Positions 4,559-17,080 of a stretch of 36,199 nt of DNA are shown here, piece by piece. The notes under the pieces were generated by a model that was given only the letters and a program-made list of their open reading frames with translations, made no database searches and was not told the origin of the DNA. A program made the position numbers and the translations under genes. The stretch is from assembly GCA_039908345.1 (NCBI GenBank), contig JAMOBD010000029.1, positions 1 to 36,199 on the forward strand, written 5' to 3'. Numbering within the stretch: position 1 is the stretch's first letter; each line of letters starts with the position of its first letter. This DNA is from Magnetospirillum sp. WYHS-4. Its GTDB lineage: Bacteria; Pseudomonadota; Alphaproteobacteria; Rhodospirillales; GLO-3.

Positions 4559-6361
4559 TTATCCCGCCGGCAGGGTGAAGCGAAAGGTGCTGCCTTCGCC
4601 GGCCAGGGAATCCACCCAGATGCGGCCGCCGTGGCGTTCCACGATGCGCCGGCAGACCGCCAAGCCGATGCCGGTGCCCTCGTATTCGTCCGCCGTATGA
4701 AGCCGCTGGAAGATCAGGAAGATGCGTTCGAAATATTCGGGCGCGATGCCGATGCCGTTGTCGGCGATCGAGATCACCCACTTGTTGCCCTCGCGCCGCG
4801 AATCCAAGCGCACCACGGGCGACCGGTCCGGGTGGCGGTATTTCAGGGCGTTGCCCACCAGATTCTGGATCAGGCGGACCAGCTGGATATCGTCGCCGAC
4901 CACCAGGGGCAGGGGGGCGGCTTCCACCCGGGCGCCGACCTCCTGGATATCGGTCTGCAGATTGTCCAGAGCTTGGCGCGTCACGTCGTCCAGGCAGACT
5001 GGGTTCATGTCGCCGCCCTTGCCGTCGATGCAGGAGTATTCCAGCAGGTCCCGGATCAGCGCCGACATGCGTTTGGCGCCTTCGACCGCGAAGCCGATGT
5101 ACTCGTGGGCGTTGTCGTCCAGCTTGTCCTTGTAGCGCTTGTCCAGCAGTTGCAGGTAGTTGGTCACCGTGCGCAGTGGCGTCTGCAGATCGTGGGACGC
5201 CACGTAGGCGAACTGCCGCAGGTCCACGTTGGAACGCGCCAGGGCCTCGGCCTTATCCGCCAGTTCTTCCCGACTGTGGCGCAGTTCGGCGGTCATCCGC
5301 AGCGCTAGTGCCTCGGCTCGCTGCTGTTGGCGGGCGATGGAAGCGATGATGACGAACAGCAAAAGGTCGATTAGCACGCCGCCCATCGCGACCACCAGAG
5401 GCTGGCTGGCTTCGGCGGCGGTCACAAAGCCCTTCTGGGTATAGAGATGGAGCGTCCAGGCATGACCCGCGTGCTGGATGGCCGATGTCTGGGTAAATTC
5501 CGGCCGTTGTTCCGGGTCGCCAAAATCGCGATGACCGCCGGGATCGCTATCGTAGAGCAGCGTCTCGGCGGACGGCGTTGTGCCATCGTAGAGTTCGAAA
5601 TGCAAATCGGTCATGCCGGCCCCCAGGATGCCCCGCATCAGGTCCTTGATGCGGAAGGGCGCATAGACGAAACCCTCCAGGGCCGCCTGCCGTTCCTCGA
5701 CCGTCCCGGCCGGCATGCCCGCCCGGTAGACCGGCAGGTAGACCAGCAGGCCGCGCTGGACGTCTTGGTCGGTTTCCTGCACCAGGGTAACCATGCCCGA
5801 CATGGCGGCCTGCCCCGTGTCGCGGGCCCGTTCCATGGCGGTGCGGCGCACCGGTTCGGAGAACATGTCGTAGCCGAAGGCCCTGAGATTGCGGCCGGCG
5901 AAGGGCTCCAGGTAAACGATGGCGGTATAGACCTCCCGCTCGCCGTCCGGACGGATGGTGTAGTTGGGGAAGCCCTCGGCCCGCACCGCTTCGATATGGG
6001 CGGCCTTGGCGTCCGGCGGAACGATCCGACTGTAGCCGATCCCCTGGATGCCGGGAAAATAGCGATCGATGGCTGCCGTTTCGACGAAGGCCCCCCATTC
6101 CGCGCGCTCGACCGTCTCGGAAGCCGCGAACAGCCCGACGCCAGACCGCAGGACCGCTTCGTATTCCAGCATCCGGCGCGCGATGCCCGCCTTGATGTCC
6201 TGGGCCTGGAACTGGAAGCGGTCGCGGGCCCGTTCCTGCACGAACCGATTCGAGATATGCCAGGCCGCCGCGGTCAGAATCAGGGAACAGACCAGGATGA
6301 CCCAGGCCGTGGCCGGATTGTGCAATACCTGCAGGAAACGGGCCTTGACGTCTTCCCCCAT
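4559..6361 (-). CDS. CHASE-domain sensor histidine kinase
   Basis: The membrane-bound kinase has 600 residues from ATG 6361, chosen because it lies just after the maeB stop at 6366; an ATG at 6394 would overlap maeB by 29 bases. A membrane helix lies at about 19-36, then a periplasmic CHASE domain to about 300 (IGYSRIVPP, YTIRPDGEREVYTAIVYLEP), then a second helix near 320-345. The HisKA region has the H-box ASHDLQTPLR with the phosphorylated His. The ATPase domain has VGNALKYRHP, IADNGIGI and GTGIGLAVCRRIVERHGG, so the catalytic motifs are complete. CHASE domains sense small extracellular molecules; the ligand is unknown. The H-box and following region resemble the phytochrome-like kinase class. 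No response regulator is adjacent, so the partner is elsewhere. The position inside aspC-maeB suggests co-expression with those metabolic genes, not a proven link. Confidence 0.9.
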   Translation of the reverse strand: MGEDVKARFLQVLHNPATAWVILVCSLILTAAAWHISNRFVQERARDRFQFQAQDIKAGIARRMLEYEAVLRSGVGLFAASETVERAEWGAFVETAAIDRYFPGIQGIGYSRIVPPDAKAAHIEAVRAEGFPNYTIRPDGEREVYTAIVYLEPFAGRNLRAFGYDMFSEPVRRTAMERARDTGQAAMSGMVTLVQETDQDVQRGLLVYLPVYRAGMPAGTVEERQAALEGFVYAPFRIKDLMRGILGAGMTDLHFELYDGTTPSAETLLYDSDPGGHRDFGDPEQRPEFTQTSAIQHAGHAWTLHLYTQKGFVTAAEASQPLVVAMGGVLIDLLLFVIIASIARQQQRAEALALRMTAELRHSREELADKAEALARSNVDLRQFAYVASHDLQTPLRTVTNYLQLLDKRYKDKLDDNAHEYIGFAVEGAKRMSALIRDLLEYSCIDGKGGDMNPVCLDDVTRQALDNLQTDIQEVGARVEAAPLPLVVGDDIQLVRLIQNLVGNALKYRHPDRSPVVRLDSRREGNKWVISIADNGIGIAPEYFERIFLIFQRLHTADEYEGTGIGLAVCRRIVERHGGRIWVDSLAGEGSTFRFTLPAG

Positions 6362-10527: not shown

Positions 10528-12573
10528 TTACAGGGGAAGGGTCGCTTGCTCCAGCCACCGTGCCGCCTCGGCGTCCAGCAGGGGCCCGAGAGTCTCGCGG
10601 ACCCGCGCGTGGTAGGCGTCCAGCCAAAGGATCTCGTCGGCGCTCATGAGAGACTTGGCGATCGCGGCGCGATCGACGGGAGCCAGGGTCAGGATCTCGA
10701 AGCCCAGCATTTCCCGCTCGCCATCGGCGGGAACGCCCAGCGCCTTGACGACCATCAGGTTCTCGATCCGAATACCATAAGCCCCGGCCTTGTAGTAGCC
10801 GGGCTCGTCGGACAGCACCATGCCGGGTTCCAGCGGCACCCGGTTGGGCAGCTTGGAGATGCGCTGCGGTCCCTCGTGGACCGACAGGTAGCAGCCGACA
10901 CCGTGGCCGGTCCCGTGGTCGTAGTCCAGACCCGCTTCCCACAAGGGGCGGCGTGCCAGGGCGTCCAGTTGCGATCCCGCCGTGCCTTTGGGAAAGCGGG
11001 CCGATGCCAGGGCGATATGGCCCCGCAACACCCGCGTGAAATGGTCGCGCATGGCGTCGGTCGGAGTCCCGATGGCTACCGTGCGGGTCACGTCGGTGGT
11101 GCCGTCGGGATACTGGCCGCCCGAATCCACCAGGAACAGGCCGCCTGGCTCAAGGAGGCGGTCGGTCTTCTCGGTGGCACGATAATGCACGATGGCGCCG
11201 TTTGGCCCCGCCCCGGCGATGGTCGGAAAGCTGGGGCCGCGGAAGCTGCCGTCGGCGCTACGCAGGGATTCCAGGTGCCGGGCGGCGGCCATTTCGGTGA
11301 TTTCGCCCTTGGGGGCCTCGCGGGCCAGCCAGGCGAGGAAGCGCACCAAAGCCACCCCGTCGCGTCGATGGGCGGCGCGAATGCCCTTAAGTTCGGCCGG
11401 ATTCTTGCGGGCCTTGGGCAGGGCGCAGGGATCGGAGCCATGGACCACGGCCGCCCCCGAGGCCAGCAACCGGTCGGCGATCCAGGCGTTGGCAGAGGCG
11501 TTGTCCAGCCGCACTCGCCGCTTTTCCAGCCCCAGGCGGGCCAGGCCGGTGGCCAGGGCGCGCACCGGCTCGAGGGTGGCGATGGGGTCCAGGTGGCGAC
11601 GCACGGCGGGCGTGAGCTTGCGCGGGTCCATGAACAGGCGGGCCGAGGCGTCGGCCATGACGATGGCGAAGCCGAGCGGCAACGGGGCATGAGGCACGTC
11701 GCCGCCCCGGATGTTGAACAGCCAGGCGATGGAATCGGATGCGGTCAACACCACCGCGTCCTGACGCTCCGTGCCGAGAACCGAAGCCAGCTCCAGCAAC
11801 TTGTCCGCGGCGTCGCGGCCGGCGAAGACCGGCGGGTGGGGTACCACGGGAGCCAGGGGCGGCGGCGGCTGGTCGCGCCAGATGGCATCGATGGGATTGT
11901 CGTCCAGGGGCACCAGCCGCCCCCCGGCCTTTTCGCAGGCTGCCTTGTAGCGTTCCACCTGTTCAGGCGTGTGCAGCCAGGGATCGTAGCCCAGGCGCGG
12001 CGCGGCCGGGCCGCCCCGGTGGTCGCGATCCAGCACCTCGGCGAGCCATTGGTCGGGTGGCTGGTCGGTCAAATGCAGAATACGCCAGTCGTCGCCGTCC
12101 ACCTCGGCGGCGGCCTGCAGCGTGTAGCGACCATCGACGAACAGGGCGGCGCGATCGCGCAGCACCACCGCCACCCCGGCCGAGCCGGTGAAGCCGGTCA
12201 GCCAGGCCAAGCGCTCGGAACGGCGCGGGACGTACTCGCCCTGGTGCTCGTCGGCACGCGGCACGATGAAGCCATGCAGGCCGCGCGCTTCCAGGTGGGT
12301 GCGCAGAACCACCAGACGGGTATGGCGGTCGCCCTCGGCCAGTCCGTCCCGCCAGCCGGCCGCCATATCCTCCTTGAGGGTAAGGAGGTGCTGTTCCAGA
12401 TCGGGGTGGGAGCCGGCGGCGATCAGCGACGTCCAGGCATCGCCGTCGCGGCCCGTGGAAGCCGCCAGCACGCCCCGGACAATGTCGCGCACCCCGGCAG
12501 GGGAATAGGGGGAACCGGCCTCCGCGAGAAGCCGTTCCAGATCGCCGCCGCCATCGTGCCCACCATCGTTCAT
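10528..12573 (-). CDS. pepP: Xaa-Pro aminopeptidase, M24B family
   Basis: The 681-residue protein removes N-terminal residues ahead of proline using two metal ions. After about 75 residues of extra N-terminus (DLERLLAEAGSPYSPAGVRD) come two creatinase-type N-domains (LRTHLEARGLHGFIVPRADEH, FTGSAGVAVVLRDRAALFVD). The pita-bread catalytic domain runs from about 400 to 620. Metal ligands are visible: the two Asp in VDSGGQYPDGTTDVTRT, His in HGTGHGVGCYLSVHEGP, Glu in SDEPGYYKAGAYGIRIEN, and a final Glu in that same segment. It belongs to the long aminopeptidase P1-like class of about 600 residues, so the N-terminal extension is the unusual part. An AGAGGG precedes ATG 12573. The gene is divergent from the Hpt/receiver gene, sharing an 86-base spacer that contains TGGCGT-CGA-ACGCCA (12595-12609). 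It is cytoplasmic, with no signal peptide. The symbol is by family only. Confidence 0.88.
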   Translation of the reverse strand: MNDGGHDGGGDLERLLAEAGSPYSPAGVRDIVRGVLAASTGRDGDAWTSLIAAGSHPDLEQHLLTLKEDMAAGWRDGLAEGDRHTRLVVLRTHLEARGLHGFIVPRADEHQGEYVPRRSERLAWLTGFTGSAGVAVVLRDRAALFVDGRYTLQAAAEVDGDDWRILHLTDQPPDQWLAEVLDRDHRGGPAAPRLGYDPWLHTPEQVERYKAACEKAGGRLVPLDDNPIDAIWRDQPPPPLAPVVPHPPVFAGRDAADKLLELASVLGTERQDAVVLTASDSIAWLFNIRGGDVPHAPLPLGFAIVMADASARLFMDPRKLTPAVRRHLDPIATLEPVRALATGLARLGLEKRRVRLDNASANAWIADRLLASGAAVVHGSDPCALPKARKNPAELKGIRAAHRRDGVALVRFLAWLAREAPKGEITEMAAARHLESLRSADGSFRGPSFPTIAGAGPNGAIVHYRATEKTDRLLEPGGLFLVDSGGQYPDGTTDVTRTVAIGTPTDAMRDHFTRVLRGHIALASARFPKGTAGSQLDALARRPLWEAGLDYDHGTGHGVGCYLSVHEGPQRISKLPNRVPLEPGMVLSDEPGYYKAGAYGIRIENLMVVKALGVPADGEREMLGFEILTLAPVDRAAIAKSLMSADEILWLDAYHARVRETLGPLLDAEAARWLEQATLPL

Positions 12574-12659
12574 GCCCTCTTATATAGACTCCCTTGGCGT
12601 CGAACGCCATTGCGCCGGCCGCCGGTTGCGGACAGAATAGTGGGTGGAGGGCTAGGGAA

Positions 12660-13451
12660 ATGGCCAACGACCTGAACGGCGTCTACGCCTCGGGGGTGGA
12701 GGCTGTGGCCGGCGAGTTGCGGCAGGAATTCATCGACGAGGCGCGCGAGCGTGTCGGGGCGCTGGATGTCGCCCTCGACGCCGTCCGCAACGGACGGAAG
12801 GACCCCGCCGAACTGACGGCCGTCTTTCGCAAGACGGCCCTGGCGTTCCGGTCCCAGGCGGCCAACGTGGGGCTGCGCCTGATCGGCACCCTGGCCTACC
12901 GGCTGGAGGATTATCTCGCCAACGCCCGCGAACTGCCGCCCCGTGCCCTGGACGACCTGCAGGTCTTCATCGACCGTCTGGACGATGTGCTGGAGGGACG
13001 CCTCGCCCCGGACAGCGATGCCTCCCAGGTGGTGCGCGATCTGCCCAGCAAGATCGGTATCAGCGCCGCCGAGATCGAGGTGCGCAACATCGAAGTCATG
13101 CTGGTGATGCTGCACGGCACCGCCACCCATTTCGTCGAGCGCGAATTGCAGCAGTGCGGCTACCGGGTCAATACGGTGACCACGGTCTTCGAGGCCTTTC
13201 CGCTGATCGTGCGCACCAAGCCGGACCTCGTGGTGGTCTCGGCCATCATGCCGGAACTGGACGGCATCGACTTGGCCATCGGCCTGGCGGCCATGCCGGC
13301 TACCCGCAACATCCCCCTGGCGGTCATCACCAGCCTGGACCCCGGAGATGAGCACTTGGCCATGGTGCCCAAGCACATTCCCGTCATCCAGAAGGGTCCG
13401 TCGTTCGGCGACGACTTGTTCAAGGCCCTCGACAGCCTGTTCCTCATCTGA
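12660..13451 (+). CDS. fused Hpt-like and receiver-like protein lacking both phosphorylation sites
   Basis: The 263-residue protein starts at ATG 12660, with GGAGG nine bases ahead. Residues about 20-112 form a helical segment resembling an Hpt domain (FIDEARERVGALDVALDAVR, then LAFRSQAANVG and a following LAYRLEDYL). At the place of the phosphorylated His in the usual AHTLKGSA motif stands Leu61, and the Lys-Gly is Arg-Ser. Residues about 143-263 have the CheY-like layout: VMLVMLHG for strand 1 without the acidic pair, VVVSAIMPELDG with Ser194 where the phospho-acceptor Asp should be, then ITS (Thr224) and IQKG (Lys245) preserved. Both domains therefore look unable to carry phosphate. This suggests a scaffold or binding partner in a signalling pathway; that role is inference. 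The methyltransferase gene begins 2 bases after its stop, so the two are translationally coupled. Confidence 0.7.
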   Translation: MANDLNGVYASGVEAVAGELRQEFIDEARERVGALDVALDAVRNGRKDPAELTAVFRKTALAFRSQAANVGLRLIGTLAYRLEDYLANARELPPRALDDLQVFIDRLDDVLEGRLAPDSDASQVVRDLPSKIGISAAEIEVRNIEVMLVMLHGTATHFVERELQQCGYRVNTVTTVFEAFPLIVRTKPDLVVVSAIMPELDGIDLAIGLAAMPATRNIPLAVITSLDPGDEHLAMVPKHIPVIQKGPSFGDDLFKALDSLFLI

Positions 13452-13453
13452 CC

Positions 13454-14056
13454 ATGGGCTGGGACGAGAAGTTCTCGACCGCGGATTATATTTTCGGCAC
13501 CGAACCCGATCCCTTCCTGGTCGCACAGGCGGACAGGCTGAAGCCTGGCGGCCGGGCCCTGGCCGTGGCCGACGGCGAGGGCCGCAACGGCGTTTGGCTG
13601 GCCGGCCGGGGATTGCACGTGCTGTCGGCGGATGCCTCTCCCAACGCCCTGAGGAAGGCCGAGGCCCTGGCCGCGGCGCGAGGGGTCGGCATTGACGCCC
13701 TCTGTACCGATCTGCTGCATTGGGACTGGCCCCGCCGGGCCTTCGACCTGGTGGCCGACGTCTATTTCCACCTGGGACCGTTGGACCGGCCGCGCCTGCA
13801 CCGGGCCATGCTGGAAGCCCTGGTGCCCGGCGGACTGCTGGTGCTGGTGGCCTTCCATCCCAGCCAGGCCGGGCGCGGCACCGGCGGCCCGCCCGACCCC
13901 GAACGCCTATATTCGGCCGACCTGCTCCGCGGCGACTTCGCCGGGGCGGAAATCCTCCATTTGGAAGAATGCGAGGTCTTCTCCGACATGCGTCTCGACA
14001 GCCACCGGCCGGGCATGGCGGCGGTGACCCGGCTGCTGGCCAGGCGCAGGGATTAG
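13454..14056 (+). CDS. class I SAM-dependent methyltransferase, TehB/thiopurine-type
   Basis: The 200-residue protein begins MGWDEKFSTADYIFGTEPDPFL, typical of small TehB-like methyltransferases. The SAM-binding core follows: ALAVADGEGRNGVWLAGRG (motif I), an acidic SADAS strand, DLLHWDWPRRAFDLVADVYFHL in order for motifs II-III, and LVPGGLLVLVAF. No substrate-specific motif is evident. Family members act on small molecules such as tellurite, thiopurines or metabolites, so the substrate is open. The start codon follows the stop of the pseudo-Hpt/receiver gene by 2 bases and has no ribosome site of its own, implying coupled translation. Its stop overlaps the stop of the convergent FecR-domain gene by 4 bases. 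Confidence 0.85.
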   Translation: MGWDEKFSTADYIFGTEPDPFLVAQADRLKPGGRALAVADGEGRNGVWLAGRGLHVLSADASPNALRKAEALAAARGVGIDALCTDLLHWDWPRRAFDLVADVYFHLGPLDRPRLHRAMLEALVPGGLLVLVAFHPSQAGRGTGGPPDPERLYSADLLRGDFAGAEILHLEECEVFSDMRLDSHRPGMAAVTRLLARRRD

Positions 14057-14751
14057 CGGAACTCCACCGTCGCGAAGGCGCGGCGGACCCGGTCCTCGGG
14101 CCAAAGGGATGGGGCGGAGGGCGGCGCGTCGGGGGCGGCGATGGTGGTGCCTTGGCCGGGCTGCAAGTCGGCGGTGCCGACATCGTTGATCACCGAGACC
14201 AGCCCCTCGATCAATAGGACCGCGAAGCCTTTTTCCTCAACCCGGCGGAAAGCCGGCAGGGGTTCGTAGGTCATCGGATTGACCTCGCCGCCGGCGGCGG
14301 GCGGACCGATGCCGGCCAGCGGGCCGCCCCAGAACCGGGTGCCGCGGATGCCGATGCTGGCGAAGGGCGTGCGGACGGCAAAGGGACGATTCTCCAGCTT
14401 GGCGATGGCGCCGGTAGCGATAAGGAAGGCTCCCTCCGCCGCGCCCAGCAGGGCCTTGCCCGTGCCGGCCGCCGAATCGTAGACCATCGCGTCCACCGTC
14501 AGGGCCGCCGCGCCGCCCAGGGTGAGCAAGGTGCCGTCGACGAAGCCGACTTCCAGGCGGCCGTCCGGGGCCGTACGCAGCAGATCGCCTTCCCGGATCG
14601 CCATGCCGACTTCCAGGGACCGGGAAACGCCGGCCGTCACGGCTTCGGCACCGCCCCGCAGGCGGGTCACGGTTCCGGCCTCGCCCGCCCAGGTCGGCAG
14701 AGCCGCGACAAGCAACAGAAGGATCGAGGCGAGGCGCGTCATGCGGCGCAT
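14053..14751 (-). CDS. exported FecR-domain protein
   Basis: The 232-residue protein starts with a clear signal peptide (about residues 1-22, MRRMTRLASILLLLVAALP, then TWA-GEAG as a cleavage site). A FecR-type region follows: EAGTVTRLRGGAEAV, VGMAIREGDLLRTAPDGRLEV and FVDGTLLTLGG. This pattern (strand-rich, 'G..v..gD.l.T...g...l...DGs.l.l') is seen in periplasmic FecR-domain proteins. A second half has FAVRTPFASIGIRGTRFWGG. It lacks the membrane helix and cytoplasmic anti-sigma part of true FecR, so it is not a sigma regulator in the classic sense; no sigma factor is adjacent. Members are generally uncharacterised. Two ATGs three codons apart could start it. The C-terminus is Pro-rich. Confidence 0.85.
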   Translation of the reverse strand: MRRMTRLASILLLLVAALPTWAGEAGTVTRLRGGAEAVTAGVSRSLEVGMAIREGDLLRTAPDGRLEVGFVDGTLLTLGGAAALTVDAMVYDSAAGTGKALLGAAEGAFLIATGAIAKLENRPFAVRTPFASIGIRGTRFWGGPLAGIGPPAAGGEVNPMTYEPLPAFRRVEEKGFAVLLIEGLVSVINDVGTADLQPGQGTTIAAPDAPPSAPSLWPEDRVRRAFATVEFR

Positions 14752-15433: not shown

Positions 15434-17080
15434 ATGAACAACGCCTTGTCTTGGCGGGAAAAAGCCGTTGCCGTTGGCATGGCCATGGCGGTGTTCGCCA
15501 TGGTGGGTGGGATGGGCTGGGTCGTCGACGATTCGGAGAACGACCAACACCGCGCCCACCAGCGGATCATGGTCGACGAACGCCTGGCGTCCTTGCGCAG
15601 CCGCCTGGAGCAGGTGCTCAATGCCAACCTGACCGCCGTCGATGGATTGGAGGCCTTCGTCCGTTCCTGCCCCGACTGCGACGGCGCCACCCTTGATTCG
15701 TTCGTCGCGGCCATGGCCGATGGCCGCGAGGAAATCCGCGCCCTGCAACTCGCGCCCGGCGCCGTGGTTGCCCATGTCCACCCGAGGCCGGGAAACGAGG
15801 CTTCCCTGGGGCTCGATCTACGAACCTTGCCGGGCCAGGCCGAAACCGTGCGAAGGACCATCGAGGACGGCCGCTTCCGGCTGGCCGGACCGGTCGCCCT
15901 GTACCAGGGAGGAAGCGGTCTGGTGGGCCGCAAGCCCATCTACCTTTCCGAATCCGAAAAGCCCTTCTGGGGCTTCGCCACGGTGATCCTGGATCTGCCG
16001 GCCCTACTCGCCAAAGCCGGCTGGCAATCGGAAGACGGGATCGGCCGCTTCGCCCTGCGCGGCGCCGACGGCAGTGGCGCGCAGGGAACGGCCTTTCTCG
16101 GCGACGACCGGATCTTCGGACAGGACCCGTTGCTGACCGAAGTCGCCTTCCCCGGCGGGTCCTGGCAGTTGGCCGGCATCCCCCGGCAGGGATGGGGCTA
16201 TACGCGGCCGGCCGCGACCTCGTTCAGGAGTGCCGTCGTGTTGGTCGCCCTGCTGGCCGCCTTGGCCACCGCATTGGTCCTGCGCCTCGGCTTCGCCTCC
16301 CGCGGGACGCGCCGCCGCCTGATCGAAGCCAGCCGGGCCAAGGGCGATTTCATGGCCCGCATGAGCCACGAACTGCGCACCCCGCTGAATGCCGTCATCG
16401 GCTTTTCGGAAGCCATCGCCACTCAGGCCCTGGGGCCGGTGGGCAACCTGCGCTATCTGGAATACGCCGACGACATCAAGCGTAGCGGTCGCCATCTGCT
16501 GGACATCGTGAACGCCATCCTCGACCTGGAAAAGGCGGAAGCCGGTCACCTGGAAATCCACGCCGAGGCCCTGTCGCCGGCCCGCTTGTGCAGGGAGACG
16601 GCCCGCCTTATGGGGCATCGCGCCGAAACGGCCGGCATAGGCCTGGTAACGGAGGCTGCCCCCGACCTGCCCGGGTTGATGGCCGATCCACGCGCCCTGC
16701 GGCAGATGCTGTTGAACCTGGTTTCCAATGCGGTCAAGTTTACCCCGGCGGGCGGGCGCATCCGCTTGCGGGCCGCGACGACGCCGGAAGGACTGGAAAT
16801 CGCGGTCGCCGACGACGGCATCGGCATCGCCGCCGAGGATATTCCCAAGGTATTGAGCGCGTTCGGCCAGGCCGGCGGGAGCAAGACCAGGCACCATGGG
16901 GGCACGGGACTCGGACTGCCCCTCACCCAGGCCTTGATCGCACTGCACGGCGGCAGGCTGGATATCCGGTCCGAACCGGGGAAGGGCACTGTGGTGGCCC
17001 TGATCTTTCCCCCATCGCGCATCCTGCGGCTGCGGGAAAACGAAACCGCGCCCGAAGGCGCGGTTGCGGAAACGGCTTAA
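15434..17080 (+). CDS. sensor histidine kinase with CHASE-like periplasmic domain
   Basis: The 548-residue protein has a membrane helix at about 10-31 (AVAVGMAMAVFAMVGGMGWV) and a periplasmic CHASE-like region to about 255 (RSRLEQVLNANLTAVDGLEA, IRALQLAPG, RFRLAGPVAL). A second helix lies at about 260-282. HisKA carries the H-box MSHELRTPLNAVIGFSEAIA. The ATPase domain has LNLVSNAVKFTPAGG, VADDGIGIAAEDIPK and GGTGLGLPLTQALIALHGG, so the kinase motifs are complete. The H-box sequence is of the large PleC/DivJ-like class common in alphaproteobacteria. No receiver domain or response regulator is linked. The last codons contain the hairpin that probably terminates the convergent rpmJ transcript. 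It is the second CHASE-type orphan kinase in the window, with a different H-box from the one at 4559. Confidence 0.88.
   Translation: MNNALSWREKAVAVGMAMAVFAMVGGMGWVVDDSENDQHRAHQRIMVDERLASLRSRLEQVLNANLTAVDGLEAFVRSCPDCDGATLDSFVAAMADGREEIRALQLAPGAVVAHVHPRPGNEASLGLDLRTLPGQAETVRRTIEDGRFRLAGPVALYQGGSGLVGRKPIYLSESEKPFWGFATVILDLPALLAKAGWQSEDGIGRFALRGADGSGAQGTAFLGDDRIFGQDPLLTEVAFPGGSWQLAGIPRQGWGYTRPAATSFRSAVVLVALLAALATALVLRLGFASRGTRRRLIEASRAKGDFMARMSHELRTPLNAVIGFSEAIATQALGPVGNLRYLEYADDIKRSGRHLLDIVNAILDLEKAEAGHLEIHAEALSPARLCRETARLMGHRAETAGIGLVTEAAPDLPGLMADPRALRQMLLNLVSNAVKFTPAGGRIRLRAATTPEGLEIAVADDGIGIAAEDIPKVLSAFGQAGGSKTRHHGGTGLGLPLTQALIALHGGRLDIRSEPGKGTVVALIFPPSRILRLRENETAPEGAVAETA
17037..17065 (-). 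terminator. rho-independent terminator of rpmJ inside the convergent kinase gene
   Basis: On the minus strand a 9-bp perfect stem AACCGCGCC/GGCGCGGTT (17065-17044) closes on TTCG, a C(UUCG)G tetraloop known for high stability. The T-rich run TTTCGTTTT follows. It lies 29 bases past the rpmJ stop, within the last 13 codons of the kinase gene on the other strand. Confidence 0.75.

Follow-up and report, generated by a model that had tools for sequence, protein, structure and literature searches.

A 263-residue protein of Magnetospirillum sp. WYHS-4 joins an Hpt domain to a receiver domain, and the phosphorylation residue is gone from both. An earlier note on this DNA had proposed such a fusion, and Pfam, AlphaFold2 (AF2) modelling and an alignment of relatives confirm it. 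Judged from its sequence, the protein is incapable of standard His-Asp phosphotransfer, as both carrier residues have been lost, a state retained throughout its clade. Since relatives from a whole bacterial order share this loss, the protein probably functions as a phosphate-free adaptor and does not represent a defunct relay. The features discussed below lie in the window, i.e., the whole stretch of 36,199 nucleotides that was analysed:

12660..13451, plus strand: pseudo-Hpt / pseudo-receiver fusion gene, 263 aa (ORF, Pfam, AF2 model, 68-row alignment)
12684..12992, plus strand: pseudo-Hpt domain, residues 9-111, a four-helix bundle with zero histidines (Pfam Hpt, Hpt-only AF2 model)
12840..12842, plus strand: Leu61 codon, phospho-His position (position 61 counts, 68 rows)
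13089..13448, plus strand: pseudo-receiver domain, residues 144-263 (Pfam Response_reg below cut-off; DivK Z 17.4; conservation)
13107..13112, plus strand: Met150-Leu151 codons, where a canonical receiver has its Mg-binding acidic pair (position 150/151 counts, 68 rows)
13239..13241, plus strand: Ser194 codon, phospho-Asp position (position 194 counts, 68 rows)
13329..13331, plus strand: Thr224 codon, conserved receiver Thr (T in 68/68)
13392..13394, plus strand: Lys245 codon, conserved receiver Lys (K in 68/68)
13454..14056, plus strand: SAM-dependent methyltransferase (Methyltransf_25, 2.3e-11; adjacency not conserved)

The fusion protein and the residues missing from its two halves

A ribosome-site-like GGAGG was seen by inspection 9 bases before the ATG of the gene. 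Pfam recognizes Hpt at residues 19-108 of the window protein (E 1.4e-6; 28.8 bits, above the cut-off of 24.6) and Response_reg at residues 156-225 (E 2.6e-5; 24.8 bits, below the cut-off of 30.2). The full-length AF2 model, built from 68 aligned rows (pLDDT 87.7, pTM 0.83), places helices at 9-43, 49-70, 73-86, and 96-111 and an alpha/beta receiver after them. The predicted folds match an Hpt domain (CheA3 P1) and a receiver (DivK), and a chance resemblance is excluded by the profile, the models, and the 68 rows. As a full-length match, PhyR was the top Foldseek row, yet it was left unused with an rmsd of 18.8 Å and a TM of 0.35. No promoters or terminators were found in a scan of 12450-14120. 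An antisense open frame of 537 aa (window 12570-14183, minus strand) spans the whole gene; it has no Pfam match and is most likely a by-product of GC-rich coding.

The relatives come from a scan of genome contigs, which returned 75 loci besides the window. The closest are labelled Magnetovibrio (73, 72 and 70% identity to the window protein). Other Rhodospirillales names among the carriers are Magnetospirillum, Paramagnetospirillum, Terasakiella, Roseospira, Rhodospira, and Caenispirillum, together with many loosely named metagenome-assembled genomes (MAGs), and Rhodothalassium and Kordiimonas are more distant. The 68 rows of the alignment are the 76 loci minus eight: six with a predicted protein outside 240-275 aa (L055, L062, L080, L097, L123, and L124), L122 as a fusion, and L115, which was missed by the gene finder. 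Because Ser194 is part of one of the two peptide patterns behind the scan, its count at this position could be inflated. Among the 61 of 68 rows that match the pattern without this site (19 of them miss the Ser pattern), the count is S60 G1. Furthermore, 41 members with at least 44% identity, obtained by whole-genome profile or protein searches and thus unaffected by the patterns, read S38 G2 N1 at position 194, and His is found at position 61 in one of them.

In the receiver half, the earlier note had placed Ser194 at the phospho-Asp position and described the acidic pair as absent, with Thr224 and Lys245 retained. All of this holds. The pair positions are Met150 and Leu151, and the phospho-Asp position reads S67 G1 across the alignment, so that Asp is missing from 68/68 rows. 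Position 150 (M65 A3) is acidic in 0/68, and position 151 (P36 L18 E7 H4 plus three others) carries Glu in 7/68. Thr and Lys are both found in 68/68 rows, and the spacing between them is exactly 20 residues in all of them. Retention of Thr and Lys in every row would be unexpected for an idle pocket, and the pocket may bind something. Pro is kept at D+4 in 59/68 rows and Gly at D+8 in 68/68. The aromatic residue at K-3, described as part of the usual Tyr-Thr coupling (PMC12632262, section 7), is gone (V46 I21 T1 in the 68 rows). Structurally, the half matches DivK with a Z of 17.4 and 2.1 Å over 119 residues, and the receiver of FrzS also matches (Z 16.3, among the 50 entries listed). A clear helix alpha4 is missing from the modelled receiver, and most of 225-241 is coil. 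Response_reg is called in 68/68 rows at E 0.01. The half is thus recognized by PF00072, weakly in the window protein, and has lost DD and D out of DD, D, T, and K, of which a pseudo-receiver lacks one or more; where a canonical receiver has a phospho-acceptor Asp and an acidic pair, it has Ser194, Met150, and Leu151.

Leu61 occupies the Hpt His position of the window protein, as had been claimed, and across the alignment this position reads L38 V18 I3 M2 F2 Y1 R1 G1 H1 N1 (68 rows). L116 is the single row with His, which is therefore absent in 67/68. A substitute within the Hpt half of the window protein (residues 1-151) is excluded, because its only histidines are at 152, 157, 232, and 239. 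Over all rows, some His lies between residues 52 and 72 in 19/68, at scattered positions and once at 61. The AF2 model of the Hpt half alone has a pLDDT of 85.8, and its best fold match is CheA3 P1 of Rhodobacter sphaeroides (3kyi/3kyj; Z 12.8, 2.4 Å over 109). Other rows of the fold search lie within 1 Z of it, and even designed four-helix bundles reach a Z of 12.4. By itself, the fold match is thus unspecific, and the Hpt identity is supplied by the Pfam match, with Hpt called in 59/68 rows at E 0.01. Taken together, this half has the four-helix bundle and PF01627 recognition of an Hpt domain, and Leu61 stands where a functional Hpt has a phosphorylatable His in helix 2.

The residues beside the lost His are still Hpt-like, with K or R at His+3 in 61/68 rows and Gly at His+4 in 55/68. 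They fit an intact receiver-docking face, and hence also a phosphorelay decoy, in which the pseudo-Hpt would dock receivers and block phosphate transfer by true Hpt proteins or CheA. Such a decoy would be in line with the nearest fold, CheA3 P1, having been crystallised with CheY6, and with the presence of His-bearing paralogues in several genomes of the order. However, conservation is lower in the Hpt part than in the receiver, and in the window protein the Gly at +4 has given way to Ser. Moreover, the two family members found in the window genome by profile search at E 1e-18 both lack His at the site, so that no sister Hpt of the family is seen there for the decoy to oppose. Proposed by analogy with plant pseudo-HPts, a decoy is conceivable but unlikely.

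Selection on the family and the order of losses

The receiver is the better conserved half, with a mean of 0.634, whereas the Hpt part averages 0.444. The best conserved elements of the receiver include helix 1 (0.703) and the alpha3-beta4 loop (0.712), and its lowest value is that of the alpha4 region (0.518). Close pairs are under purifying selection, with a dN/dS of 0.077-0.185 in the six pairs of lowest dS (0.10-0.35), three of which come from one trio (L113, L114, and L119). In these six pairs, dN is 0.000-0.021 for the receiver versus 0.023-0.103 for the Hpt. Its better conservation and lower dN suggest that most of the function under selection resides in the receiver half, and that Asp phosphorylation plays no part in it.

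The window protein and its nearest relative, L050, differ by a dN of 0.19 and a dS of 1.2. Among farther pairs, dN/dS is 0.508 at a dS of 0.39, the median is 0.40 over 1446 pairs (dS 0.05-1.6), and the ratio reaches 1.05 (L061/L120) among the 40 pairs listed. These high ratios may stem from unreliable dS in GC-rich genes, and no weight is placed on them here. They would also be expected if the protein were a decaying remnant of a relay without function, as would the loss of both catalytic residues and the single in-frame TAG in the Hpt half of one relative (L008 / L062), where one lineage may be losing the gene. Nonetheless, the low dN/dS of the closest pairs, the residues common to 68 rows, and the invariant Thr-Lys spacing all argue against decay, which is extremely improbable as an account of the family.

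The family extends well beyond the close relatives. A profile of divergent members matches 135/259 genomes of the order at E 1e-18, and a profile of the window clade matches 48/385 genomes sampled from the class (E 1e-12). In a survey of 158 distinct full-length members, taken from, but not exhausting, a longer list and with 13 partial matches dropped, His is found at 61 in 39 and Asp at 194 in 2. Both acidic-pair positions are acidic in none of them, Thr is kept in 153, and Lys in 139. The 116 of these members that came from whole-genome searches read S82 A15 T8 N7 D2 G2 at 194, with His at 61 in 37. The two Asp-bearing members, L045 (genome G041) and L196 (G543), are sister rows in a small His-bearing group; they keep the Hpt His, the Thr, and the Lys and lack the acidic pair of strand 1.

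Some members stand apart for other reasons. The second family member of the window genome (L031, G000:C23:2780-3538) is 33% identical to the window protein and adjoins a DEAD-box helicase and a type II dehydroquinase. L047, L048, and L049 form a divergent His-bearing branch in which the receiver Thr and Lys align with Cys and Ser. The L047 gene adjoins a LuxR-type regulator and a HisKA_3 kinase, with a CheA-like kinase about 0.8 kb off, and homologues of both kinases are carried by L048 and L049.

A quick search gave an unrooted tree of 78 rows, built without an outgroup and weak at 32 forks, in which the window falls in starred sets of 25 (96) and 33 (98) rows. Of the 27 His-bearing rows, 26 lie outside the 33-row set, and the only one inside is L116. 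The motif H-x-x-[KR]-G is found in 23 of the 27, and L116 has Val where the motif has Lys. The fewest changes of the His state on this tree are 7; if only losses are allowed, 10 are counted when any His is scored and 4 when the full motif is. As His is standard in Hpt domains, the direction is read as loss and not as gain. A phosphate-blind receiver on a live Hpt thus probably came first, and the window clade lost the His later. On this reading, an ancient fusion joined a live Hpt to a receiver already blind to phosphate, and the His was then lost repeatedly; how often and in which sequence is tentative, given the unrooted tree and its weak forks.

Gene neighbourhood

No neighbour common to the whole clade was found among the 76 loci. 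The neighbours form 77 distinct clusters (genes of at least 90 aa, one per cluster; distant homologues may count as separate clusters), among which GGDEF, MCPsignal, and HisKA are each found in 4, hemerythrin, Response_reg, and Methyltransf_25 in 3, and EAL and CBS in 2. The control consisted of genes located three to five genes away, i.e., 76 of a random 77 drawn from 236 clusters, with L071 (2190 aa) omitted. GGDEF, MCPsignal, and Methyltransf_25 are missing from the 25 control families listed, a list that hides most families seen once, and HisKA (2) and Response_reg (3) are present. The MCP signalling domain would also suit the decoy discussed above. Many neighbours are metabolic genes, and the ties to chemotaxis or c-di-GMP genes, with counts this small, are suggestive only. 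Two CHASE-domain histidine kinases are encoded in the window, one about 6 kb before the gene (4559-6361, minus strand) and one about 2 kb after it (15434-17080, plus strand); Pfam scans detected no receiver domain in either.

The methyltransferase directly downstream had been put forward as the probable output or co-factor of the window protein. The gap of 2 bases to its ATG (13454) was confirmed, and no AGGA-like ribosome site of its own was seen. The short gap and the lack of a visible separate site speak for a two-gene working unit, as do the three Methyltransf_25 neighbour clusters (the window's included) set against none among the control families listed. However, the adjacency is not conserved in the genomes searched, and the proposed role is unsupported. 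In 94 neighbourhood loci, tblastn at E 1e-8 gave zero matches to the methyltransferase. A homologue at E 1e-15 is found in 14/60 genomes including the window's, and in none of the 13 others does it lie beside a listed family member. The Magnetovibrio genomes G021 and G041, where the family proteins share 73 and 70% identity with the window protein, have no match at E 1e-15 either. The methyltransferase is rejected as a partner on synteny; it probably lies outside the system, and a two-gene unit is very improbable.

A role as a second-messenger receptor, in which the pseudo-receiver would bind c-di-GMP or another small ligand and the Hpt bundle would report the binding, draws on another part of the neighbourhood. 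In 25/76 loci, a divergent gene of a CBS-PAS-GGDEF-EAL cluster, of which one member was scanned, is located within three genes upstream. These genes (L081 6585-9107 and homologues in 24 other loci) belong mostly to Magnetospirillum-type genomes and are probably one syntenic set. In Rhodothalassium and Kordiimonas (L121, L124), a PleD-like REC-REC-GGDEF gene is located directly upstream, with a gap of roughly half a kilobase, and is preceded by a 121-aa receiver, taken for DivK on its sequence. The GGDEF clusters counted above and the Thr and Lys kept in every row are also consistent with a receptor. There is a precedent in ShkA REC1, described as binding c-di-GMP (PMC7010744); a pseudo-receiver of this type would bind it on the beta5-alpha5 surface. 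On the other hand, the counts are small and may include clusters counted twice, the control list hides most singletons, and the many metabolic neighbours fit poorly. Resting on analogy with ShkA, such a receptor seems distinctly unlikely.

The pseudo-receiver is also found in a different setting. L122 2784-4115 (the same contig sequence as L015) encodes a protein of 443 aa in which a ParA-type ATPase and a PilZ-like stretch precede a pseudo-receiver, and Hpt is absent. The C-terminal pseudo-receiver is about 60% identical to that of the window protein, and the fusion is a single case from one Rhodospirillales MAG. Its middle part resembles PilZ by eye, though Pfam makes no PilZ call there. A protein of another genome, L223, is 38% identical to L122 over the ParA part and the middle and has PilZ (E 1.1e-9) after ParA but no receiver. 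The ParA part of L122/L015 is the only N-terminal extension backed by homology; at the extension of L059, the gene finder puts another gene on the opposite strand. A search of viral contigs with the L122 fusion protein returned zero relatives. As it occurs in L122 without an Hpt, the pseudo-receiver appears usable as a module.

A proposed phosphate-free adaptor and its place among known systems

The earlier note had inferred a phosphate-independent scaffold or sensor. The phosphate independence is borne out: of the two outcomes that the note had named as refuting it, predicted folds unlike Hpt or receiver and orthologues with His and Asp at the two positions, neither occurred, as both folds match and His is missing from 67/68 rows and Asp from 68/68. 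The scaffold or sensor role is only plausible. In the reading preferred here, the protein is a conserved phosphate-independent adaptor whose pseudo-receiver docks a partner, and belief and doubt in this reading are about evenly weighted. The pseudo-receiver would be the working half, docking the partner without a phosphate switch. Candidate docking stretches are helix 1 (V-E-R-E-L-x-x-C-G-Y-R), the alpha3-beta4 loop (M-P-x-T-R-N), and K-G-x-x-F-x-D-D-L after strand 5. The more variable pseudo-Hpt bundle may act as a tether, contribute to a dimer, or offer another face for docking. The ancestor would have combined a His-bearing Hpt with an already aspartate-less receiver that steered the Hpt to its partner. 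The window clade would then have lost the His, which would leave recruitment or scaffolding without phosphotransfer. The setting is likely chemotaxis or c-di-GMP control, albeit weakly supported.

The adaptor reading is weakened by the absence of a partner candidate and of a neighbour conserved throughout the clade. The His at position 61 of L116, the fast climb of dN/dS beyond the closest pairs, the Hpt-like residues still found beside the lost His in most rows, and the invariant Thr and Lys also count against it. A broader version is more tentative and, on present evidence, doubtful: an order-wide family of phosphate-free adaptors, in which Hpt and receiver were turned into a binding module by stepwise descent, with a partner linked to the chemotaxis or c-di-GMP machinery and with living intermediates of every step in related genomes.

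The receiver half, as far as its sequence goes, fits the published definition of a pseudo-receiver, i.e., a receiver without at least one of five active-site residues, and belongs to the aspartate-less subset (PMC12632262). It shares with that subset the fold, the Pfam match, the loss of Asp and acidic pair, and the retention of Thr and Lys; the window protein adds an Hpt domain that is also without its His. According to the same source, 0.9% of Hpt domains (90/10,312) are without the His and 2.0% of receivers without the Asp, and the portion of this review that was available names no protein with both losses. The accessible part of a two-component survey of Azospirillum counts stand-alone Hpt proteins and shows no such family. 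No bacterial protein with both losses in one chain was found described in the open-licence literature searched. The parts, pseudo-receiver and pseudo-Hpt, are thus already known, and their union in one bacterial chain would be new within that literature.

In plants, pseudo-HPts of the AHP6 type have the phospho-His replaced, with Asn at the site, and are held to block the phosphorelay. By analogy, they may be the nearest idea for the Hpt half, as both have an Hpt fold with the phospho-His replaced and a proposed role as non-transferring modulators. In contrast, the family described here is bacterial, is fused to a pseudo-receiver, and has mostly Leu or Val at the site. Compared to CheA3 P1 of Rhodobacter sphaeroides, with which it shares 19% identity, the window protein has no His and no kinase or CheW domains. 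PleD of Caulobacter is the best PDB sequence match (profile residues 153-234 to PleD 12-93, E about 5e-12). PleD consists of receiver, pseudo-receiver, and GGDEF, whereas the window protein has no GGDEF output and carries an Hpt in front; a PleD-like gene neighbours two relatives of the window protein. ShkA REC1 of Caulobacter, as far as it is described in PMC7010744, is likewise an alphaproteobacterial pseudo-receiver in a phosphorelay-type protein. It sits inside a hybrid kinase and misses helix alpha3, whereas alpha4 is missing from the model of the window protein. HmrX of Caulobacter, in the available part of its description, is a putative Hpt with a candidate His81 and is not a match.

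The on-off switching of bacterial pseudo-receivers is called a mystery in the abstract of a recent review (Bourret et al. 2025, PMC12632262). As the protein is small, its model confident, and relatives occur in cultured species, knock-out and pull-down experiments would be direct. The family offers a natural series, from a His-bearing Hpt with a pseudo-receiver, through a pseudo-Hpt with a pseudo-receiver, to a pseudo-receiver behind a ParA-type ATPase in one genome. With such a series, the function of a pseudo-receiver could be studied where neither end of the protein can take up phosphate.
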